Source: Pseudomonadota bacterium (GTDB lineage Bacteria > Oederibacteriota > Muellerivitia > Muellerivitales > Muellerivitaceae). From it: DNA of 32,711 bases. Shown in pieces: positions 4,514-32,711 of the stretch. The stretch spans positions 1-32,711 of the forward strand of contig JAJPJW010000161.1 in assembly GCA_021324075.1 (NCBI GenBank), read 5' to 3'. The notes under the pieces were generated by a model. The model ran no database searches and was not told the origin of the DNA. It saw only the letters and a program-made list of their open reading frames with translations. The translations under genes were made by a program, and so were the position numbers. Every line of letters begins with the position of its first letter. Position 1 is the first letter of the stretch.

Positions 4514-5424
4514 AGTTCGAATTCCATCCCATCCATCCCCACCTCTACTCCCGCTTCCTTCACTTTTTTGTACTCGGGACTGGAAGCGTTCAAGATGGGG
4601 TTGGTGTTGTTGATGTGCAGGTAGATTTTACGGGCAATGGGAAGCTTGCGCAGGATTTCCAGGCTTCCCCGGGGGCCGTTTAAGGGCAGATGGGCCATCT
4701 GGGAGGCCGTCAGCTTGCCCGTTCCCGTCTTGGGCATCTCGTCATCCTCCCAAAAGGTGCCGTCCAGGAGCAAGGCCTGGCAGTCGGCAAGGTTCTCCAA
4801 CACTTTCACCGGCAGGTCGGCCACGTCGGGCAGGAAGGCCAGCTTGCCGCCGGTCTTTTCATCCACCAAAAGGTAACCCACCGCGCTTCCCGGCAGGGCC
4901 TTGGAGCCGGCGTAACGGGGAAGCTTTCCAGGGACCTCAAAAGCCCGGTAGAGGAGGCCGCTTTCCGACCCGTCGCTTTTCAAAAGGGGTTCCAATTCAA
5001 CGGGAGGTTCGTGCCAGGACACTCCGCCATAGGCTTGGAGCACTTGGGAGATCCGGAGGCCTTCATCCAGGGCCTGGCGGACCGCAGCGGGGGCATGCAG
5101 GTGGAGTACACCGCCCTCGCGGAGGATAAAAATGCCCAGCACGTGGTCCAGGTCCGCGTTGGTCAATAGGGCCCCCTCGATGGGGGTTCCCCTTACCTGG
5201 CTTTGGGGCGGCTTCAAGGGCTGGAAGGCTTCAATTTGGTGGCGGATGTCGGGCGAGAGGTTAAGCAGGAACCAGGCTGTCCCATCGGCGCTGACCGCCG
5301 CGGCGGACTGGCTGCGCGCCGGAACCTCCGCCTTTCCCTGCCGGGCCTGCCGGCAGAGGGCGCAGTTACAATTCCACTGGGGGAACCCGCCGCCGGCGGC
5401 GGTTCCCAGCAATCGGACGCGCAA
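4510..5424 (-). CDS. pqqB: PQQ biosynthesis protein PqqB
   Basis: A 304-residue metallo-beta-lactamase-fold protein. The N-terminal block LLGTAAGGGFPQWNCNC (about residues 5-21) is diagnostic of PqqB and includes the Cys residues that bind a structural zinc. A DLDH motif (91-94) corresponds to the altered metal site of this family, and a conserved LREG follows at about 101. PqqB hydroxylates the PqqA-derived Glu-Tyr intermediate. The start is TTG, chosen because the conserved N-terminus begins right there; no clear ribosome binding site precedes it (the leader is C-rich), so translation probably depends on coupling to pqqA, whose stop is 20 bases upstream. The C-terminal part (YLHINNTNPI) keeps the family's conserved His-rich strand. 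Confidence 0.93.
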   Translation of the reverse strand: MRVRLLGTAAGGGFPQWNCNCALCRQARQGKAEVPARSQSAAAVSADGTAWFLLNLSPDIRHQIEAFQPLKPPQSQVRGTPIEGALLTNADLDHVLGIFILREGGVLHLHAPAAVRQALDEGLRISQVLQAYGGVSWHEPPVELEPLLKSDGSESGLLYRAFEVPGKLPRYAGSKALPGSAVGYLLVDEKTGGKLAFLPDVADLPVKVLENLADCQALLLDGTFWEDDEMPKTGTGKLTASQMAHLPLNGPRGSLEILRKLPIARKIYLHINNTNPILNASSPEYKKVKEAGVEVGMDGMEFEL

Positions 5425-5587: not shown

Positions 5588-8470
5588 TCACTCCAGGATC
5601 AAAAGTTTCAAAATCGTCCGCTTCCCATTCGCCGTGACCAGGACGTAATAAAGTCCGTTGGCCAGGGGACGGCCGCCCTTGTCCTTCAAGGGGATGTCCA
5701 GTTTATCAGTTCCGGCGGGTTCGGGAAGGGTGATATTCAGCACCTGCCGGAAGGACGGGGTGAAGATCTGGACGCGGACCTCCCCTGCCGTAGCCAGGCT
5801 CACTTGGAGCGTCACTGAACCGCCGGTAGCAGGATTGGGATAAAGCAGGGGAGTGGCGGAAACCGCCGGAGTGGTACTGGCGGAAGGCGTTGAGGTCATG
5901 GAGGGCTGGAGGGTGGGCGTCGGAGAGGGCGTCCAAGTGGGTGAAGGCGTCAGGGTGCGGGTAAAGGTCGGGGAAACCGTCACGGTGGGGGTAAAGCTGG
6001 GGGATAGAGTGGCCGTGGCGGTCGGGCTGGAAGTAGCGCTATTCACCGGCGTAGAGGTGGCGGTGGCGGGCAAAGTGGCCGTCGGCGTCGCCGAAGGCGT
6101 CTTAGACGGGGTGGCCGTCGCGGTAAAGGCCAGGGTCGGGGTGGAAGTCCCGGTGGCGGTGGAAGTAAGCGTGTTTCGCGGGGTAACCGTGGGCGTGGAA
6201 GAAGGGGTGGAAGAGGCCGTCGAGGTAGCCGTGCTGACTGGCGTCAATGTCGGCGTATCCGTAGCCGTACCGGTCGGTACGGAAGTAGCCGTCAGGGTGG
6301 AGGTCCCCGTGGAAGTCCGGCTGGGGGTCTGAGTCGGACTGCCCGTAGAAGTGTTTGACGGCGTCCAGCTTGATGTAAATGAAGCTGTCGGTGTGCTGGA
6401 GGCTGTCGCGCTGGCCGTCAACGTGCTTGAGGGCGTTGCTGAATTGCTGAGGGTGTTTGTCGGCGTGGCGCTAAGAGTCGGCGAAGCGCTATTAGTGGGA
6501 GTACCGGTCGTGGTGGCCGTGGGGGTACGGCTGGCGGTCGCAGTGGGCGTGGAAGATGCGGTTGAAGTCGCGGTGGCGGTCGGGCTGGCGGTGCCTGTTC
6601 CCGTGGGCGTAGAGGTTGTAGTGAAGCTAGGCGTGGCGCTGGGGGTTCTCGTGGCCGTGGACGTGGGGCTCCCCGTCGCTGTATTGGAGGAAGTCGCAGT
6701 GGGCGTGGAAGACGCGGTTGAAGTCGCGGTGGCGGTCGGGGTGCGGCTGGCGGTGGAAGTGGCCGTCGGCGCCGGGCTTCCCGTGGGCGTGGGACTGGGG
6801 GTCGCGAGCAACCCGTAAACCACCAGGCTGTTGGCGGTCGGCACGAAGACCTTGCCGTTCACGACGCTGGGCGGGGCGAACTTGACCACGCCGCCCACCG
6901 CCGAATCCCGGGCGCCGGTGGCCTGGCCGCTGTTGTAAAGCTCCGTCCCGAGGTTGGTGGCGTCATAGGCGTGCAGCGTGACCGGGGTGCCGGAGGAAAG
7001 GGCCCAGAGGATGCCGTTGGTGTTTCCGTTGGAGGAGACGCTGGGTACCGCGCCCTGGCCTCCGAAGGTTTCCGAAGTTTCCGAGAAAAAGGGCGTCACA
7101 TATTGGCCGTTGACGAAGCGGAAGGATTTGACCGGGGATCCCGTCATCCCCCAATAAACGAATTGGGTGACCCCGTTGCTGTAGATGGCGGGGGTGGTAT
7201 AGCCCCTGCCCCCGATGGCCGCCACCGTCTGGGGGACGTTGTTGGCGGTGGCGCTGAATTCGCCCATCTTGCCCGTGGCCGCGTCCACCACGTAAAGGTC
7301 GCCCGGTTTGTCCGCGCCCAGGATGAGGTTGGGATGGGCCGTCGTTCCCCAGGAGGCGGGCAGCAGGCACTGCCCCGCCGAACCCACGTCGTTGTCGGCG
7401 TTGCTCATGGTTTGCTGGTTCATGGGGGCGAAGTAATCCAGCACCGTCACCGCGTTGCCCGTGGTGTTCAATTTCAGGAAACACTGGGGGTAGTCAGGGC
7501 CGATCCCGCCGCCCGATTCGGAGGTCCCGTTGGAGGTGAGGAAATAAAGGTTGCCCGCCGAATCCACCGAGGGGCCGTCGCCCGATTCCCAAAGGGAGCC
7601 CTCGCTGGTGTTGGGGGTGGTGTCGTAAACGCTGAGCTGCTGGGTGATGTTGGCGGCGTTATAGCCGATGACCCATCCGTGGTAATTGCCCCAGGTGTTC
7701 AAATCGCAGTGGGAGGTCCAGCTGGTATAGACCACCCCGTTCACCAGGGCCAGGGCGCACCTTTCCTTGTAGGCCTGGGGGACGAAGTTCACGGTGGTGC
7801 CGCCGTTTCCCGTACCGGGGCCCGAAGCCTTGATGGTCTGGGGCCCGTTGGCGGTTTCGGCGCCGGTGGAGATGTTGACGGCGTGGAGGGTCTGGGTAAA
7901 AGTGGTGACACCGGCCGAGACCGTCTTGGTCATGGCCACGAAATACATGATGCCCGTGGAAGTGTCGATGACGGGCGTGTCCGTGATGCCGATCTGGGGG
8001 GTGATCTGGCCGCAGCTGCCCACATCGGCTTGGGCCACCGTCATGGTCACGCCGCCGATGTAGCTGTCATGCCAGTAGGTGACCCCGGCGGTGTCGGCGT
8101 CGAAGGCATAGGCGCTGTCGTTCTCGGTAACCACGTAAACCACGTTATGGGTGCCGCCGCCGATGCTGACATTGGGCATATAAAGGGGTTGGGCGTAGAC
8201 TTGGCCGTCCACCGCGTCAGAAAAAAGCTTCCCGAAGTTGGTGGAGTTGACATTGGTGGTGGTCAAGACGGTTTCAGACTGGTTCCATCCGTCACGGGCC
8301 TGGTCATTGTGGTAGGTGGTGAGGGAAGTTTGGGGAAAAACCGGGGAACAGGCCAAGAAGAGGAGGGTTGCGCGGAAGATTCCTCCCAGCCCGTAGCCAG
8401 GGGGAAAGGAAAAAAGCGGATTTTTTATATGAAAAAATCGGCGCTGCAACGCCGATCCAGTGGAGTTCAT
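5588..8470 (-). CDS. Secreted PQQ-like beta-propeller protein with ~310-residue Thr/Pro stalk and FlgD/T9SS-like C-terminal domain
   Basis: A 960-residue protein. Residues ~25-45 form a hydrophobic export signal (ATLLFLACSPVFPQ). Residues ~48-550 are a beta-propeller with PQQ-repeat-like strands (VVYVVTENDSAYAFDADT, YVVDAATGKMGEF, LYFLTSNGT), as in the PQQ-binding-like/BamB-like families. Residues ~555-865 are a Thr/Pro/Ser stalk, followed by a ~95-residue beta-sandwich (LYPNPATGGSV ... NGLYYVLVTANGKR) typical of FlgD-type C-terminal modules. The vicinal Cys pair of classic quinoprotein dehydrogenases was not seen, so enzyme activity is unproven. pqqA begins 50 bases downstream on the same strand, which suggests co-transcription and makes the protein a candidate PQQ user. 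No ribosome binding site precedes the ATG; a GATACT lies nine bases upstream. Confidence 0.8.
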   Translation of the reverse strand: MNSTGSALQRRFFHIKNPLFSFPPGYGLGGIFRATLLFLACSPVFPQTSLTTYHNDQARDGWNQSETVLTTTNVNSTNFGKLFSDAVDGQVYAQPLYMPNVSIGGGTHNVVYVVTENDSAYAFDADTAGVTYWHDSYIGGVTMTVAQADVGSCGQITPQIGITDTPVIDTSTGIMYFVAMTKTVSAGVTTFTQTLHAVNISTGAETANGPQTIKASGPGTGNGGTTVNFVPQAYKERCALALVNGVVYTSWTSHCDLNTWGNYHGWVIGYNAANITQQLSVYDTTPNTSEGSLWESGDGPSVDSAGNLYFLTSNGTSESGGGIGPDYPQCFLKLNTTGNAVTVLDYFAPMNQQTMSNADNDVGSAGQCLLPASWGTTAHPNLILGADKPGDLYVVDAATGKMGEFSATANNVPQTVAAIGGRGYTTPAIYSNGVTQFVYWGMTGSPVKSFRFVNGQYVTPFFSETSETFGGQGAVPSVSSNGNTNGILWALSSGTPVTLHAYDATNLGTELYNSGQATGARDSAVGGVVKFAPPSVVNGKVFVPTANSLVVYGLLATPSPTPTGSPAPTATSTASRTPTATATSTASSTPTATSSNTATGSPTSTATRTPSATPSFTTTSTPTGTGTASPTATATSTASSTPTATASRTPTATTTGTPTNSASPTLSATPTNTLSNSATPSSTLTASATASSTPTASFTSSWTPSNTSTGSPTQTPSRTSTGTSTLTATSVPTGTATDTPTLTPVSTATSTASSTPSSTPTVTPRNTLTSTATGTSTPTLAFTATATPSKTPSATPTATLPATATSTPVNSATSSPTATATLSPSFTPTVTVSPTFTRTLTPSPTWTPSPTPTLQPSMTSTPSASTTPAVSATPLLYPNPATGGSVTLQVSLATAGEVRVQIFTPSFRQVLNITLPEPAGTDKLDIPLKDKGGRPLANGLYYVLVTANGKRTILKLLILE
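5880..6815 (-). repeat. Low-complexity Thr/Pro/Ser-coding repeat tract
   Basis: About 935 bases of degenerate short repeats (read on the plus strand as GTGGCGGTCG-like and GGCGTGGAAG-like units) that encode the stalk of the beta-propeller protein. One unit, AGTCGCAGTGGGCGTGGAAG or close to it, recurs near 6536 and 6692, which indicates recent internal duplication. Such tracts commonly change length by slippage. Confidence 0.8.
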
Positions 8471-8661
8471 GGTTAAAAAGTATCACTTTTATTGGCGCTT
8501 TTCGGAGATTTAAAGGCTTTTTTTAGGAAACCGACTACACCAAAAAATTTAACGTTTAAGACTGGGGTCCAAGGCCTTCCAAGGCGTCCAAAACCAATAA
8601 GCTGTGTGTGAACAAAGTGTTAAAATTCCACATCATCGAAACAATCAAGGACATCAACACC
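8471..8661. promoter_or_regulatory. Divergent promoter region of the pqq-side operon and the TonB receptor
   Basis: This ~190-base AT-richer spacer separates the minus-strand beta-propeller/pqq unit from the plus-strand TonB receptor. It should hold promoters for both. I could not recognise a strong -35/-10 pair, a Fur-type box or a cobalamin riboswitch. A GATACT near the minus-strand start could serve as a -10. Confidence 0.5.
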
Positions 8662-10686
8662 ATGGCCTCGACCAACCCCTCCAAATCCCTCTTGTTCCTG
8701 CTATTTCCGACACTTCTTTATGGCCAATCCCCCTCCCCGACGTCCACTCCGGCTGTTGCCGCGACTCACCTGTCCCCCGGACCACAAGCCGGGGGACAAG
8801 GTTTGGTTGTGCCGAGCCAAGGTGCCGACGGTATCGGAGGCATCACTGGAGGCTCGGCAACCCAAGCTGAAACGGTTTTCCAAATCCAGGAAGTAGTGGT
8901 CCAGGCCAAGCCGTTCCCGGGCGACGTCTGGGAAGGTAAGGATTTGGAGGGACTCCAAAACGACGGCCGCCTTTCCACCTTCCTCAACGACGCGGGGGGA
9001 GTGGATGTGCAAGGGGTCGGCGGCGCCAAGACCTTCAGCACCGCTTCCATCCGGGGCTCTTCCCCCGGACAAACCCTCATCCTTCTCAACGGCCAAAGGA
9101 CGAACGAGGGTTTCGACCTGGGCCTCGTTCCCACCGGGGATATCGAGCGCATCGAGGTCCTCAAGGGGCCCGCGGCCCTGGCCTACGGGTCGGAAGCCAC
9201 GGGCGGCGCCATTAATATCATTACGAAAGCCGGAACCGGGGGCGCCAACCTGGACGCCTCGGGGGGCGACTTCAATACCTGGCAGGTCCAGGGTGGGACC
9301 GGCCACATGAAAGCCGGAGCCTGGGACAGTTCCTGGAACGCCGGCTGGTACCAGACCGGCGGCTATACGGTCAACACCGACGAGGTTTCGGGGGAGATTA
9401 ACCATGATTCCGAATGGTCCTGGGGGGACGACCGACTTTCCCTCCGGGCTGGTTACGTTTATAAGGACGGCGGTTCCCCCAACGGCGACAGTCTTTCAGC
9501 CCAGGATACGGGCCAGTTCGACACCGACGACCGCGAAAAGAGGAACGCGGTGGAGGTCTCCCTGCAAGGTGAGCGGGCCTCGGACGACTGGACCTTCCGC
9601 CCCTCCCTTTCCTACAGCTTCGCCGACGTCGAACGTTTAAACCCGCTGGGTCCGGACGCCGTGGCTGGCGTGCCACTGGGGGACGAGAACATCTACAACC
9701 ATTTCGATTCCAGGGCTTCGGCCGGTGGAAAATGGAGCGGTTTTTTACAATCGCTGGACCTGGACGCCGAGTTCAGGGCCCAAAACGTGACGGGCACCGA
9801 AGGCTTGGGGGGCGGCTACCGGTGGGACAACCGGACTTCCCTTTCCACCCATGCCGGCCTTGCCCTTTCCCCGGATCTTTTCCTGGACTTGGGCGGCCGG
9901 ATGGATTGGTATAACAGCTACGGACCCCTGGTCTTCAACCCCGAAGCCACCTTGCGGGAAGTCCTCTCCCCGGGCCGCGACCTTTACCTGGAAGCGGGCA
10001 CCGGCTATCGCTACCCGGATTTCGACGAATTATTCCACCCAACCATCGCCTATATCGTGGGTCCGGACACCCCGGTGGAATTCGGCAACGGGGAGACCGG
10101 GAACCCCAACTTGCTTCCCGAATCCTCCCTCAACCTGGAGGCCGGCACCGACCTGCTGTTCGGCGGCCTGCTCCTCAAAGCCGGCGGGTTTTGGAATACT
10201 TATTCCAACCTCATCGTGCCGGGGGAGGACGCTTCCAACTTCTGGACCTTCCTCAATGTGGCCCATGCCCGCCAATTGGGCGCCGAGGTCGGCTTGAAAT
10301 GGAACCTCACTAAAGATTGGTCCCTCCGGGGTGATTACACCTATGTGGATTCCCGCGACACGGACTCCAACCGGCTCATCCCCGCCCGGATGCGCCAAAA
10401 ACTTTCGGCAGGGGTGGATTGGGAACCGGCGCCCGGCGCCCGCTTGAACCTGGACGCTGATTACCTGGACCGCAACCCCGCCGTCTACAACGGACCGCAG
10501 GACAGCCCGCCCCTGGTCGTGGCCTCCGACTACACGGTCTTCAACGCCGGGTTCAAGCTCGACCTCACCCGGGACACCCGCCTTTTCCTCGAACTGGACA
10601 ACCTCCTCAACCAGACCTACGCCACCTTCCAGGGCCTTCCCATGCCCGGGCGCTCTTTCGAGGCCGGCACCCATTTAAGCCTCTAG
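8662..10686 (+). CDS. TonB-dependent outer-membrane receptor
   Basis: A 674-residue receptor. Residues 1-22 form a signal peptide (SLLFLLFPTLLYGQ). About residues 75-82 hold a TonB-box-like strand (IQEVVVQA), followed by a plug domain (STASIRGSSPGQTLILLNGQR, split motif; then RIEVLKGPAALAYGSEATGGAINIIT in two blocks) and a ~500-residue beta-barrel with alternating aromatic strands. It imports a scarce ligand through the outer membrane using TonB energy. The ATG at 8662 is preferred over the in-frame GTG at 8608 because it starts the signal peptide and has AAGGA ten bases upstream. Residues ~37-68 are encoded by a palindromic repeat and would not be expected in relatives. The gene diverges from the pqq operon; PQQ, a metal complex or cobalamin are possible ligands (inference). 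Confidence 0.9.
   Translation: MASTNPSKSLLFLLFPTLLYGQSPSPTSTPAVAATHLSPGPQAGGQGLVVPSQGADGIGGITGGSATQAETVFQIQEVVVQAKPFPGDVWEGKDLEGLQNDGRLSTFLNDAGGVDVQGVGGAKTFSTASIRGSSPGQTLILLNGQRTNEGFDLGLVPTGDIERIEVLKGPAALAYGSEATGGAINIITKAGTGGANLDASGGDFNTWQVQGGTGHMKAGAWDSSWNAGWYQTGGYTVNTDEVSGEINHDSEWSWGDDRLSLRAGYVYKDGGSPNGDSLSAQDTGQFDTDDREKRNAVEVSLQGERASDDWTFRPSLSYSFADVERLNPLGPDAVAGVPLGDENIYNHFDSRASAGGKWSGFLQSLDLDAEFRAQNVTGTEGLGGGYRWDNRTSLSTHAGLALSPDLFLDLGGRMDWYNSYGPLVFNPEATLREVLSPGRDLYLEAGTGYRYPDFDELFHPTIAYIVGPDTPVEFGNGETGNPNLLPESSLNLEAGTDLLFGGLLLKAGGFWNTYSNLIVPGEDASNFWTFLNVAHARQLGAEVGLKWNLTKDWSLRGDYTYVDSRDTDSNRLIPARMRQKLSAGVDWEPAPGARLNLDADYLDRNPAVYNGPQDSPPLVVASDYTVFNAGFKLDLTRDTRLFLELDNLLNQTYATFQGLPMPGRSFEAGTHLSL
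8771..8859 (-). repeat. In-frame two-hairpin palindromic element, copy 1 (TonB receptor)
   Basis: Short hairpin: TGTCCCCCGG (8771-8780) pairs with CCGGGGGACA (8789-8798), a perfect 10-bp stem. Spacer GGTTTGGT. Long hairpin: TGCCGAGCC (8810-8818) pairs with GGCTCGGCA (8851-8859), with an inner stem GGTGCC (8821-8826) to GGCATC (8839-8844). It encodes a Gly/Pro-rich insert between signal peptide and TonB box without a frameshift or stop. It is in opposite orientation to the copies in the VOC and CE15-like genes. Confidence 0.85.
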
Positions 10687-13830: not shown

Positions 13831-13875
13831 AAAAAAAATGCCGTGGACGGGGCGGCCAGGCCTCCGTCCACGGCA
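13831..13875 (-). terminator. Intrinsic terminator of the GH10 xylanase gene
   Basis: A perfect 12-bp stem (TGCCGTGGACGG 13839-13850 with CCGTCCACGGCA 13864-13875) followed on the minus strand by eight T residues (13831-13838). It lies 19 bases after the xylanase stop. Confidence 0.92.
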
Positions 13876-26795: not shown

Positions 26796-27395
26796 TTAGC
26801 GCACTTGTGTCAAATACAGGGGTGTGCCGTCGGGGTCGAAGAAGAAGGCCAGGATATTGACCTCGTTCTCCTGGAAATGGAACTTCACGCCCTTGGCCTC
26901 CATCTCCTTCGCGGTGGCGCGGATATCCTTCACCTCGAAACCGATGGTCAAGTTATGGGCCGTCGAGGTACCACCGTGGGGATGGGCCGCCGAGGCACCG
27001 GAGTGCGAGCTGGGGCCTTGTCCGGCCGGGGCGCCATGGGGCTGGGCCGCCTGCCCTCCGGCCCTCACGTCGGAGGGCAAGCCTCGATGAATTATATCGC
27101 CCTTGGCCGCGCTATCGGACAACGGGTGGCTGGGCCCAGTCGGGGTGCCGAAGCCTGCTGAGGCACCATCGTGCGACTGGGCAACCGCTCCCCAACCCAT
27201 CTTGGCGGCCAGTTCGGGGGAAGTCCCGACCTTCTTGGGATGCAGTCCGATGGTCAGGCCCTGGACCACCATTTCGGCCCAGTTGTCCCCGAAGCGCAGG
27301 TCCTCGACCATTCCCAGGACCTGGGTGTAGAAATCCACCGCCTTGTCCAGGTCGTCCACCATGATCGTGGCATAGGCTTTCTTGATTTCAGGCAC
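26796..27395 (-). CDS. VOC/glyoxalase-family protein interrupted by an in-frame palindromic insertion
   Basis: A 199-residue protein made of a ~122-residue VOC (glyoxalase/bleomycin resistance) fold split by an insertion. Residues 4-68 hold the first beta-alpha-beta half (AYATIMVDDLDKAVDFYTQVLG); residues 147-199 hold the second (HNLTIGFEVKDI ... FFFDPDGTPLYLTQ). The intervening ~77 residues (about 70-146) are Gly/Ala/Ser/His-rich and coded by a palindromic element plus short repeats. The fold could still assemble with the insert as a surface loop. VOC proteins bind metals and act on varied small molecules; the substrate is unknown. The GTG at 27395 is preferred because AGGAG lies seven bases upstream and the fold begins there; an in-frame start at 27428 is weaker. 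Confidence 0.85.
   Translation of the reverse strand: MPEIKKAYATIMVDDLDKAVDFYTQVLGMVEDLRFGDNWAEMVVQGLTIGLHPKKVGTSPELAAKMGWGAVAQSHDGASAGFGTPTGPSHPLSDSAAKGDIIHRGLPSDVRAGGQAAQPHGAPAGQGPSSHSGASAAHPHGGTSTAHNLTIGFEVKDIRATAKEMEAKGVKFHFQENEVNILAFFFDPDGTPLYLTQVR
26955..26999 (-). repeat. 27-base-period tandem repeat inside the VOC insertion
   Basis: Two 18-base units, 26955-26972 and 26982-26999, differ at only two positions and are spaced 27 bases apart, keeping frame. They encode GTSTAH and GASAAH. The long hairpin of the nearby palindromic element encodes the similar DGASAG, so the units may be degenerate pieces of it. Confidence 0.7.
27052..27182 (-). repeat. In-frame two-hairpin palindromic element, copy 2 (VOC protein), with enlarged spacer
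   Basis: Short hairpin: TGCCCTCCG (27052-27060) pairs with CGGAGGGCA (27071-27079), perfect 9-bp stem. Long hairpin: GCCCAGTCG (27134-27142) pairs with CGACTGGGC (27174-27182), with inner stem GGTGCC (27144-27149) to GGCACC (27162-27167). The spacer is 54 bases here against 11-13 in the other copies. In the coding direction the long hairpin comes first, as in the CE15-like gene. Confidence 0.85.
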
Positions 27396-27523
27396 GGACG
27401 CGCTCCTAAAAATGATAGTTCGTTCCACTCAACGGCTAACGGTATTTTCGGCTAGTCTTTGGGAAGGGCAAGGTTAAAATAAAACCCTATCGCCTCGGTT
27501 TCGATATTTTCAAGGAGGGCCCT

Positions 27524-28868: not shown

Positions 28869-29025
28869 AAAGCCTCCTTGGAATATACCGACACCATGTT
28901 AGCGAAAAAACGAAACTCATGATTCCATTAAAACGACTATCGGCTATGCCCCCTTTGTTGGGGACCCCTGCCTTGTGTTAAATTTTCAATATATCCGCTA
29001 CTCAAAACTCCGGGAGGCCTCCGAA

Positions 29026-30489
29026 TTGGGAATCTTCAATAAACTTTCCATATTTCTCGCCGGCCTCGGAATGCTTCTGGCGGCCCAGCCCAGTAATGGC
29101 GCCTCCGCAGGCTCCGATGCCCCGGCTGGGCACAGCCAAAGCACGCCCTACGACCTGAGGGCCGGAGGGCAGGCGGCCGGGCCCTTAAAAGCCCAAGAAC
29201 CCTGTGCCCCGGTTACCCTCACCGCCGAGGAAGACCATACCCGGATGATGAAGCTTCTCGGCATCGCTTCCCTGCGACCCTGGGTCAACGGCATGGACCC
29301 CAACGCTCCCAACCGGCCCAATTACGACGAAGCCAAGGCCAATCCATACCCCGATCTTCCCGACCCCTTCCTCACCCAAAAGGGAAAGCGCATCACGGCC
29401 CCCGGGGAATGGTGGAGCATCCGCCGGCCGGAGATCGTCGAGGATTTCGACCGCGAGATCTACGGCCGGGTCCCCGCAGACGTCCCCGCCGTTACCTGGA
29501 AGGTCCAAAGTTCGGCGGAAGGGGAAAAAGCCGGGGTGCCTATCCTGACCCGAATTTTGGTCGGCCATGTGGACAACTCCTCCTGCCCGGGCATCACGGT
29601 CGATATCGAAGCGACCCTCATCACGCCCCGCAACGCCAAGGGCCCCGTGCCCGTAGTGGTGCAACTCTGCGGCGGCTTTTTCTACAAGCCCAAGGACAAG
29701 AACGGCAATATCCCCAAGTGGCTCGCCTGGCAGGACCTGGCCCTGGCCAAGGGTTGGGCCTGTTGCGAACTGAACACCGATACCATCCAGGCGGACAACG
29801 GCAGCGGCCTCACCCAGGGCATTATCGGGCTCTCCAACAAAGGCCAACCCCGAAAGCCGGACGATTGGGGCGCCCTGCGCGCCTGGGCCTGGGGCGCGGC
29901 CCGCCTGCTGGACTATTTTGAAACGGACCCCGCCTTGGACGCCGGGAAGGTGGCCGTCGAGGGCCACTCCCGCTGGGGCAAGGCCGCGCTGGTGGCCATG
30001 GCCTATGACCCGCGTTTCGCGGCGGCCTATGTGAGTTCTTCCGGGGAGGGCGGCGCCAAGCTTCACCGGCGCAACTTCGGGGAGCCCGTGGAGAACATCG
30101 CCTCCAGCGGCGAATACCATTGGATGGCGGGCAACTTCCTTAAATACGCCGGTCCCCTCACCTGGGACGACCTGCCGGTGGACGCCCACGAGCTCATCGC
30201 CCTTTGCGCGCCCCGCCCGGTCTTCATCAGTGCCGGCAACGTCGGCGACGCCTGGGTGGATGCCCGGGGCATGTTCATGGCCGCCGTGGCGGCCCAAAAG
30301 GTCTATGAGTTCTTGGGTAAGAAGGGCATGGGAACCGACGCGATGCCGCCCGTGGGCACGGGGCTTCTGGACGGCGATCTTGCCTTCCGCCAGCACAACG
30401 AGGGCCACACCGACGGCCCCAACTGGCTGTTCTTTCTGGATTTCGCCGAAAGACATTTCAAGGCCCCGCCCGGAACAAAAGCTGAATAA
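29026..30489 (+). CDS. CE15-like glucuronoyl esterase (secreted alpha/beta hydrolase)
   Basis: A 487-residue protein (from TTG at 29026). Residues 1-~20 form a signal peptide (KLSIFLAGLGMLLA); residues ~20-53 are coded by a palindromic element; the catalytic part starts near residue 60. VEGHSRWGK puts the nucleophile at S315 in the G-x-SR-x-GK motif of carbohydrate esterase family 15. SGEGGAKLHRRNFGE follows as in bacterial members, LPVDAHELIAL-APRPVF precedes the end, and H461 in NEGHTD is the catalytic His. CE15 enzymes cleave glucuronate esters linking lignin to xylan, which fits the GH10 xylanase in the same window. GGGAGG eight bases before the TTG and the signal peptide favour this start over the GTG at 28975, which lacks both. 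Confidence 0.85.
   Translation: MGIFNKLSIFLAGLGMLLAAQPSNGASAGSDAPAGHSQSTPYDLRAGGQAAGPLKAQEPCAPVTLTAEEDHTRMMKLLGIASLRPWVNGMDPNAPNRPNYDEAKANPYPDLPDPFLTQKGKRITAPGEWWSIRRPEIVEDFDREIYGRVPADVPAVTWKVQSSAEGEKAGVPILTRILVGHVDNSSCPGITVDIEATLITPRNAKGPVPVVVQLCGGFFYKPKDKNGNIPKWLAWQDLALAKGWACCELNTDTIQADNGSGLTQGIIGLSNKGQPRKPDDWGALRAWAWGAARLLDYFETDPALDAGKVAVEGHSRWGKAALVAMAYDPRFAAAYVSSSGEGGAKLHRRNFGEPVENIASSGEYHWMAGNFLKYAGPLTWDDLPVDAHELIALCAPRPVFISAGNVGDAWVDARGMFMAAVAAQKVYEFLGKKGMGTDAMPPVGTGLLDGDLAFRQHNEGHTDGPNWLFFLDFAERHFKAPPGTKAE
29083..29170 (+). repeat. In-frame two-hairpin palindromic element, copy 3 (CE15-like esterase)
   Basis: Long hairpin: GCCCAGCC (29083-29090) pairs with GGCTGGGC (29124-29131). Short hairpin: GCCCTACG (29145-29152) pairs with CGGAGGGC (29163-29170) with one mismatch. 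Spacer 13 bases. It codes AQPSNGASAG ... YDLRAGGQAA right after the signal peptide; the same peptide pattern (AQSHDGASAG ... SDVRAGGQAA) occurs in the VOC protein. Confidence 0.85.
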
Positions 30490-30647: not shown

Positions 30648-32711
30648 ATGCCCCCCTTCCTACCCGAGTCGGAGTTCCAGTTCATCTTTGATTCCCTGCC
30701 CGGCATCTACCTTGTCCTCAAACCCGATTTCACCATGGTGGCGGCCAACCAAGCCCGGTACAAGGCCACCATGACCACCCCGGAGGGCACCCTGGGCCGC
30801 AATGTCTTCGACCTTTTCCCCGACAACCCCGACGATCCCGCCGCCACGGGCGTGGCCAACCTGAAGGCCTCCCTCCTGCGGGTCCTGGCCAGCAAGAAGC
30901 CCGACACCATGGCGGTTCAGAAATACGACATCCCAAGGCCTGAAAGCGAAGGAGGCGGCTTTGAAGAGCGCTATTGGAGCCCCCTGAACTCGCCGGTGCT
31001 GGATGAAAAGGGCCAGGTGGCCTATATCATCCACCGGGTGGAGGACGTCACCGACTTCGTGCGCTTGAAGCAAAAAGGCGCGGAGCAAAGCAAGCTCACC
31101 GATGAACTGAAGGACAAGGTACAGGAAATCGAGATGGAGGTCTTCCAGCGGGCCCAGGAAGTCCAGCGGGCCAACGAGAAGCTGAGGGAGCTGGATAAAT
31201 TAAAGACCGAGTTCTTCGCCAACGTCAGCCATGAGCTCCGCACCCCCCTGACCCTGATCCTGGCGCCCATCGAGAGCCTGCTGGCGGACAAGCCCCAGGG
31301 CGACCCGCCCGCCCCCCGCCCGGTGTTGCAGACCGTCCACAACAACGCCGTGCGGCTGCTGCAGATGATCAACGGCCTGCTCGACTTCTCGAAGGTCTCC
31401 GCCGGCAAGACGGAGGTCAGCCGCGAGCCAGTGAATATCCTGGACCTGACCCGGTCCATCTTCTGGGACTTCAAGGGAATCCTGGCCCAGAAGGGCGTCG
31501 AGGGGGACCTCTCGGCCCAGGCCCCCCAACCCGTCGTGGAGATGGACCGCTACCTTTACGAGCGCGTCCTCTTCAACCTGCTTTCCAACGCCGTGAAGTT
31601 CACGCCCAAGGGCGGGAAGGTGGCGGTGGCCCTTGAAGCCCGCGACGGGAAGCTGACTTTGTCGGTGGCCGACACGGGCATCGGCATTTCGGAAAAGGAC
31701 CGGTCTAGGCTTTTCGAGAAGTTCTACCAGGCCGAGGGTTCCTCAACGCGCCGGTTCGAGGGGACGGGACTGGGCTTGGCCCTCGTGAAGGAATTCAGCC
31801 TGCTCCTGGGCGGGAACGTGGCGGTGGAAAGCGAGCCGGGCAGGGGCTCCACCTTCACCTTCACTTGCCTTGCCCCGGAATCGAAGGCCCCTGTCCCGAG
31901 GATACAATCCGAGGGACAAGGTTTGGGTGTACCCAATCCCATACCAGGATTGGGTGCCCCTGCCGAACCCCCGCCCGGGCGCAAACCCCTGGCTGTCCCC
32001 TTCCTGGCGGAGGCCCCGGCGGATTTGGCGGAAAAGGGGGGCGGGAACACCGGTCTTCCCAAGATACTGGTGGCCGAAGACAACCCGGAGCTCTCGGCCT
32101 TTCTTTTTTCCCTGCTTTCGCCCCTGGCCCGGGTGGAGACGGCCGCGGACGGCGCTGAAGCCTTGGAACTGGCCCGCCGATGGCGGCCCGACCTGGTGCT
32201 TTCGGACGTGATGATGCCCCATGTGGACGGCATCCAATTGACGAGGAGCCTGAAGGAAAACAAGGAAACCGCCACCATCCCCGTCGTGCTCCTGACCGCC
32301 ATGACCAACCGGGAGGGGCTGTTGAAGGGCTGGGAGGCCGGGGCCGACGACTACCTGTTCAAACCCTTCCATCCCAAGGAACTGGAGGCCCGGATCCGGT
32401 CCATCCTTTCGGGCCGGGAGTGGAAGCGCAAGGGGGAGGCCTATAAGCGCCAGCGGGACGCCATGGAGCACTTCACCCACATCGCCTCCCACGACCTCCG
32501 CGAGCCCCTGCGCAAGATCATGGTCTTCGTCGGGCTGTTCCTGGACGAGCAACCCGGGCTGGGCGGGGAGTCCAAGGAGGCCCTTTTGGGAATTTCCCGC
32601 ACCGCCGACCGCATGATGAGCCTCCTGGACTCCCTCATGCAATACACCCGGCTGGACGGCCAGGCGGACCCGCCGCAAAACACCCCCATGGGAAAAGTCG
32701 TGCGCGAAGCC
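30648..32711 (+). CDS. Hybrid sensor histidine kinase PAS-HisKA-HATPase-REC-HisKA (3' truncated)
   Basis: The frame is open from ATG 30648 to the end of the window (688 codons, no stop), so the C-terminus is missing. Residues ~5-140 form a PAS domain; ~150-185 a coiled coil; then HisKA with SHELRTPL (His near 198) and a HATPase domain with NLLSNAVKF, DTGIGI and GTGLGL. A Pro/Gly-rich hinge (about 408-475) contains a palindromic element. Next is a receiver (ILVAEDN, phospho-Asp in LSDVMMPHVDG, FKPF). After it comes a second, phytochrome-like HisKA (ASHDLREPLRKI), whose ATPase domain presumably lies beyond the window. AAGGAGG six bases before the ATG fixes the start. It would sense a signal through PAS in the cytoplasm (no membrane segment) and run an internal phosphorelay. 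Confidence 0.92.
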   Translation, partial: MPPFLPESEFQFIFDSLPGIYLVLKPDFTMVAANQARYKATMTTPEGTLGRNVFDLFPDNPDDPAATGVANLKASLLRVLASKKPDTMAVQKYDIPRPESEGGGFEERYWSPLNSPVLDEKGQVAYIIHRVEDVTDFVRLKQKGAEQSKLTDELKDKVQEIEMEVFQRAQEVQRANEKLRELDKLKTEFFANVSHELRTPLTLILAPIESLLADKPQGDPPAPRPVLQTVHNNAVRLLQMINGLLDFSKVSAGKTEVSREPVNILDLTRSIFWDFKGILAQKGVEGDLSAQAPQPVVEMDRYLYERVLFNLLSNAVKFTPKGGKVAVALEARDGKLTLSVADTGIGISEKDRSRLFEKFYQAEGSSTRRFEGTGLGLALVKEFSLLLGGNVAVESEPGRGSTFTFTCLAPESKAPVPRIQSEGQGLGVPNPIPGLGAPAEPPPGRKPLAVPFLAEAPADLAEKGGGNTGLPKILVAEDNPELSAFLFSLLSPLARVETAADGAEALELARRWRPDLVLSDVMMPHVDGIQLTRSLKENKETATIPVVLLTAMTNREGLLKGWEAGADDYLFKPFHPKELEARIRSILSGREWKRKGEAYKRQRDAMEHFTHIASHDLREPLRKIMVFVGLFLDEQPGLGGESKEALLGISRTADRMMSLLDSLMQYTRLDGQADPPQNTPMGKVVREA
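31892..31955 (-). repeat. In-frame two-hairpin palindromic element, copy 4 (kinase hinge)
   Basis: Short hairpin: TGTCCC (31892-31897) pairs with GGGACA (31913-31918). Spacer with GGTTTGGGTG. Long-hairpin position: ACCCAATCC (31931-31939) pairs with GGATTGGGT (31947-31955), perfect 9-bp stem with a much shorter loop than in other copies. It encodes PVPRIQSEGQGLGVPNP, which aligns with SPGPQAGGQGLVVPS of the TonB receptor copy in the same reading frame and orientation. Confidence 0.8.

Follow-up and report, generated by a model that had tools for sequence, protein, structure and literature searches.

Two genes of the window (the whole stretch of 32,711 nucleotides that was analysed) carry short hairpins of related sequence, and the locus raises the question of why the stem sequences differ while the pairing is kept. 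In the original prediction, the hairpins of a VOC/glyoxalase gene and of a TonB-dependent receptor gene were described as differing by compensatory base changes, which was taken to point to selection on, or gene-conversion-like maintenance of, the palindrome itself in DNA or RNA. Both hairpins were found where they had been placed:

27052..27079, minus strand (the coding strand): short hairpin (S) of the VOC/glyoxalase-gene copy, TGCCCTCCG-ACGTGAGGGC-CGGAGGGCA, with a 9-bp stem formed by TGCCCTCCG and CGGAGGGCA
8771..8798, minus strand: short hairpin of the TonB copy, with a 10-bp stem

The two double changes were also recovered, at 5/28 (C-G against T-A) and 8/25 (T-A against C-G) of a 32-base alignment, corresponding to 7/30 and 10/27 in the earlier 34-base numbering. 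The remaining differences lie within the loop or directly beside it. Two double changes from one pair of copies are little proof alone, but the pattern is general across a family of copies.

The short hairpin forms part of a larger element. This element had been missed at first, together with the linker covarying with its 3′ end and its in-frame insertion. The element is interspersed, measures about 70–100 bp and consists of a long hairpin (L), a linker and the short hairpin, in that order. A repeat search tied the VOC copy to a copy in an esterase gene and searches of the own genome added further copies; the window holds four, in VOC, TonB receptor, esterase and histidine kinase genes:

26796..27428, minus strand: VOC/glyoxalase gene, PF00903 matched at 19-202 around the insert
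27134..27182, minus strand: long hairpin of the VOC copy, with the inner GGTGCC/GGCACC arm
27085..27128, minus strand: 42-base middle module (M) of the VOC copy, between L and S, which most copies do not have
8608-10686, plus strand: TonB-dependent receptor gene, carrying a copy read on the minus strand
8767..8858, minus strand: complete L, linker and S copy in the TonB-dependent receptor gene, in frame, before the Plug domain
8805..8810, minus strand: linker ACAACC of the TonB copy, whose ACC pairs with the GGT of the 3′ CAGGTG at 8767-8772
29083..29175, plus strand: complete copy in a glucuronoyl-esterase-like gene (28975-30489), on the same strand as the gene and near the N-terminus
31888..31956, minus strand: short-form copy with a simple L loop in a hybrid histidine kinase gene, between the HATPase and receiver domains

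The histidine kinase copy is accompanied by CAGGGGC direct repeats at 31956-31962 and 31887-31893. VOC genes of relatives carry elements in the same loop as the insert of the window. The arms of L read about GCCRATTCC and GGAATYGGC, to which the long form adds the inner GGTGCC/GGCACC arm. Between L and S lies a linker with the consensus ACA-N1N2C-AARNCTY. The consensus of S is GNNNC-TC-GGC-TTGWG-GCC-TC-GNNNC with a single A on the 3′ side, followed by G-N2′-N1′-G, so that the element ends in CAG-N2′N1′-G. The TC/TC internal mismatch of the S stem was kept in 93 of 135 copies, and in 107 both positions were unpaired. Other conserved positions are the linker ACA, the AA..C motif, the apical loop sequence and a 7-against-1 internal loop.

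The middle module is confined to a minority of copies, located at 27085-27128 of the window, at locus L101 (1315-1400) and in an intergenic copy on G000:C87 (near 5251-5306); carriers of the module include RimO of genome G001. The RimO copy of G002 has no module and is otherwise nearly identical, which indicates gain or loss of the module inside the element. Other features of the window are a perfect 12-bp intergenic hairpin at 13838-13875 (TGCCGTGGACGG..CCGTCCACGGCA), which is not a copy of the element and is a possible terminator, and a 960-aa protein on the minus strand (5588-8470) with a long Thr/Pro/Ser-rich repeat of the TPTATSTPT type before a C-terminal sorting-like domain. The ORF at 1-537 contains a tract similar to that repeat.

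Covariance models were built, first from eight copies and then from 84, and gave 183 matches over eight genomes of one candidate-division FCPU426 family, whose members are uncultured soil bacteria. Of these, 24 are in the genome of the window (G000), and its seven relatives of the same family have 24, 8, 72, 1, 19, 31 and 4; these counts cover the best-scoring candidates only and are lower bounds for the real copies. The model had no match in 37 other genomes of the phylum. The copies form a family of interspersed insertions that is restricted to a single family of FCPU426. Searches of Rfam at curated and permissive thresholds gave no relevant match to the element, and the exact core pattern had no match in viral contigs.

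Comparison of orthologous genes showed that the element inserts precisely and in frame. A glycosyltransferase gene provides reciprocal empty sites, the first filled in G000 only and the second in G001 and G003 only. RimO is filled inside the TRAM domain in G001 and G002 and empty in four other genomes. In LeuRS the site is filled in G002 only, by 66 additional bases with CAGGTG on both sides, against a single CAGGTG in G001. A gene for a 603-aa protein, where the motif is lacking, holds a copy in G001, and its site is empty in G000, G002 and G003. Further carriers encode AddA/AddB-like helicase-nucleases, an ABC-F-like ATPase and a Y-family polymerase, and in-frame peptides are predicted from both orientations of the element. 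Insertion into other copies was observed as well: when one copy was excised and the flanks were joined, another copy reappeared in 7 of 124 cases, of which five were strong (0.7 in mismatched joins).

At tRNA-Thr, two tandem copies lie 5′ of the gene in G000 and one in G004, with the start of the tRNA, GCTGGGG, repeated at the junctions, which suggests that the 5′ ends of tRNA-Thr genes are a recurrent target. Copies directly 5′ of tRNA-Thr were located in two genera, at L208 330-580 (G000:C11:40400-41300) and L056 1370-1540. Head-to-tail tandem copies of near unit length are present in several genomes (L110 1358-1501, L208 473-542 and its neighbour, L212 834-970); they could have arisen by successive insertions at a single target or through circle-like intermediates. 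Proteins with a ParB_N domain carry copies in three genomes (L085, L034, L114) and form a hot host gene family; in G006 several copies occupy one ParB_N gene, sense and antisense.

The ends of the element are less regular. Direct repeats at the two ends are weak and not general across copies, and terminal inverted repeats joining both ends are lacking in most copies. An outer stem formed by the host flanks was rejected as a defining feature, as only 10 of 122 copies have one of at least 6 bp (3.8 expected). The longest of these stems belong to tandem units on G001:C45, where three element units with a 148-base period each lie within an outer inverted repeat, CCAGATGATGT/ACATCATCTGG (L068 227-592).

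Covariation over many copies, the check by which the original prediction was to be judged, was assessed in a structure-free MAFFT alignment of 105 dereplicated copies. Pairs were scored by a G-test with average product correction, and the scores were set against a null of 120 alignments simulated on the tree, keeping the inferred substitutions per branch; this test imitates R-scape and is not R-scape itself. Eight pairs scored 65–157 against a 95% maximum of 54 in the null, all of them in S and including two outer linker pairs. These linker pairs belong to an outer helix between linker and 3′ end, which covaries across an internal loop. In the model-fitted alignments, which unlike the structure-free test are biased towards structure, 93.7% of the cells were paired at the first count, and 401 had double changes, as opposed to 106 after shuffling. 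Among 139 distinct copies 93.8% of cells were paired, with 688 double-changed cells against 184, and all 18 modelled pairs had changes on both sides. Sliding the partners lowered pairing to 22–46%, and 21 copies obtained after the models had been built displayed the same pattern of double changes. The L and S stems and the linker-to-3′-end helix covary. That the hairpins are simply related copies, their two double changes being meaningless, would fit so few changes in one copy pair; at the scale of the family it is refuted by the tree-based null, the shuffled and slid controls and the later copies, and scarcely any weight is left to it.

Double changes were also seen where different genera carry copies at one and the same gene site. 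At glycosyltransferase site 2, four pairs changed on both sides stayed Watson-Crick between two genera, against 1.2 expected for independent arms, and three same-site comparisons of VOC copies gave 1, 3 and 2 double changes against 0.0, 0.7 and 0.5. The structure is either maintained once the element is in place, or some sites received an element twice. VOC copies from different genomes resemble each other most (similarity 0.77–0.86) and those of glycosyltransferase site 2 not clearly so (0.74), a difference that allows no firm statement on concerted evolution. Together with the covariation across the family, the changes between same-site copies strongly support the part of the original prediction that concerned selection on, or upkeep of, the palindrome.

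The gene-conversion-like part fared less well. Template switching during replication, or quasipalindrome correction, would copy one arm onto the other, making a double change a single event for which no selection on a fold is needed. It is a documented mechanism that can yield compensatory changes and has been proposed as their source (PMC8794818; also PMC8604942 and PMC7202029). It requires no mobiliser and, acting after insertion, would fit the same-site double changes between genera. Arm-to-arm copying would, however, tend to erase the TC/TC mismatch that is kept between two covarying segments of the stem, which makes conversion between the arms less likely. The conserved 7-against-1 internal loop and apical loop sequence, and the covariation of the linker with the 3′ end across an internal loop, argue against it too. 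Template switching may be the source of some of the double changes, and as the explanation of the pattern it is considered unlikely. A similar stem mismatch is needed by REP elements of E. coli for TnpA-REP (PMC8266576); with this parallel, the kept mismatch leads us to prefer selection for a recognised fold.

The choice between DNA and RNA, left undecided originally, could be narrowed to DNA from the wobble pairs. G.T and A.C were equally rare among the interior pairs (30 and 32 of 1886 cells) in the strictest count, made without the weaker basal pair of L and three outer pairs on the S side; an earlier count over all pairs together gave 41 G.T and 71 A.C. The acceptor and T stems of 35 tRNAs of G000 and G003 served as control and had 19 G.T and no A.C. 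Since a fold at the RNA level should favour G-U, the missing G-U excess points to a constraint on DNA, or on both strands alike, and selection looks to act at the DNA level; the equal counts also fit a mutational route such as template switching. A structured RNA (a small RNA, ribozyme or mRNA element) that is spread by transposition and keeps its fold by covariation would match the arrangement of paired, unpaired and conserved positions, and the covariance model does find the element well. This reading is nevertheless quite improbable, given the clear G-U excess of the tRNAs against none in the element, the lack of an Rfam match, and copies that lie in frame in coding genes in either orientation.

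The explanation favoured, to which we give a probability of about 0.6 from sequence comparison, is that of a short non-autonomous mobile DNA element whose fold would be recognised by a mobilising enzyme. It is read as an element like the Rickettsia palindromic elements or MITEs, with an anatomy like that of IS200/IS605. The enzyme would recognise the element folded in single-stranded or cruciform form; the stem sequence could then drift freely provided that pairing, mismatch and unpaired motifs persist, and only copies keeping the fold would spread or persist. The repeated CAGGTG at LeuRS and GCTGGGG at tRNA-Thr speak for this explanation. The end repeats, which are not general, and the clean empty site of the 603-aa gene without the motif count against it, as does the outcome of the search for a mobiliser: G000 and G003 yielded no Y1 transposase, and the Y1 and reverse transcriptase genes retrieved had no copy nearby. 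Most copies have diverged, so that the activity may be past, and if the compensating changes at shared sites arose after insertion, selection at mobilisation is not the full explanation.

Within the same explanation, the trinucleotide of the linker would be a guide pairing with the junction or target, by analogy with the guides of IS200/IS605 and REP. In 78 of 104 copies the linker N1N2C and the 3′ G-N2′-N1′ are complementary where they should be, against an expectation of 20. The guide complement was also weakly enriched at positions −5 and −4 of the 5′ flank, with 9 and 14 occurrences against 3.3 and 6.3 expected (z ~3.6). Guide pairing may be regarded as a lead, and these bases could just as well form the foot of the S stem. 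Across the family the guide takes the values ACC, CCC, GCC, CTC, ATC, TTC, AGC, GTC and others. It is conceivable, if rather doubtful, that the element is a minimal mobile DNA whose target is set by its own guide (N1N2C with G-N2′-N1′), drifted guides then being natural retargeting by an enzyme as yet undescribed.

In IS200/IS605 ends such as those of IS608 and ISDra2, a guide 5′ of the terminal hairpin pairs with a site 3′ of it, and a change of guide changes the site (PMC8266576). The order of putative guide, hairpin and putative cleavage site is equal in the present element, which differs in having no transposase gene, in a guide that varies naturally among copies and in carrying a repeated motif on both sides at some junctions. 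With the REP/TnpA-REP (RAYT) system, which works in single-stranded DNA (PMC8266576), it shares the conserved stem mismatch and a short motif 5′ of the hairpin. REPs, in contrast, are mostly extragenic and bear a GTAG tag, and many copies here are intragenic with the motif AARNC and a variable guide; the consensus hairpin foot is ACA-N1N2C-AARNC, not a GTAG or CGTC tag.

These likenesses (a conserved mismatch in the hairpin, a guide on its 5′ side and a site on its 3′ side, as for REP bulges and guides in PMC8266576) would suit a true repeat of REP type or of IS200/IS605 origin, mobilised by a HUH (Y1) transposase of the same genome. The REP class needs the TnpA-REP (Y1) gene. Y1 transposases were found in six of the eight genomes of the family; none was detected in the draft genomes of G000 or of G003, the richest carrier, an absence that is not final. 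Reverse transcriptases were found in three of the genomes only, and no copy of the element adjoins the Y1 or reverse transcriptase genes that were retrieved. Both enzymes were thus rejected as the resident mobiliser, being absent from key carriers and not beside copies; the mobiliser gene may be missing from the draft genomes. To our knowledge, IS200/IS605 insertion is not expected to duplicate a junction motif, and the repeated CAGGTG at LeuRS and GCTGGGG at tRNA-Thr depart from this, with no duplication at the 603-aa gene. With the GTAG tag lacking as well, true membership of this class has a poor chance of being correct.

Among known repeats, the Rickettsia palindromic elements (RPE-1 to RPE-3) and Wolbachia palindromic elements are palindromic, ~100-150 bp long and present in several copies per genome; they sit in frame within conserved protein genes and add a translated peptide to the product (PMC10969869, PMC2229807, PMC3767692). 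The present element is likewise a small palindromic repeat with several copies per genome (1–72 model matches in each of eight genomes), in frame in conserved genes with empty orthologous sites in LeuRS, RimO, the glycosyltransferase and the 603-aa protein; no common descent is claimed. It differs in its unrelated FCPU426 host, two separate hairpins, fixed internal mismatch and covarying linker. RPEs are reported to lose repeat identity with time (PMC6649704), whereas pairing is here maintained through double changes. Intragenic MITEs (ERIC, Correia, YPAL and others) are also small non-autonomous repeats giving in-frame fusions (PMC2229807). Unlike these, the element has two side-by-side hairpins and in most copies no terminal inverted repeats joining the ends, nor is there a general outer flank stem or a general direct repeat. 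Coding sequences of Nematomorpha mitochondria contain inverted repeats that are seemingly actively kept (PMC6649704); those are long perfect repeats scattered in genes, unlike one insertion family with a fixed internal mismatch.

The element belongs to a known kind, the coding palindromic mobile repeats, among which its strong covariation is unusual. Palindromic insertions that keep the reading frame of bacterial genes are known best from the Rickettsiales, and a family in LeuRS, RimO and DNA-repair genes of FCPU426 makes the insertion of peptides by mobile hairpins a broader phenomenon than that order. Strong covariation, a kept mismatch and no wobble bias are together a rare sign, at the scale of a family, of selection on the structure of DNA and not of RNA. 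They give a concrete route to a fold-reading enzyme and a natural data set for weighing selection against template switching.
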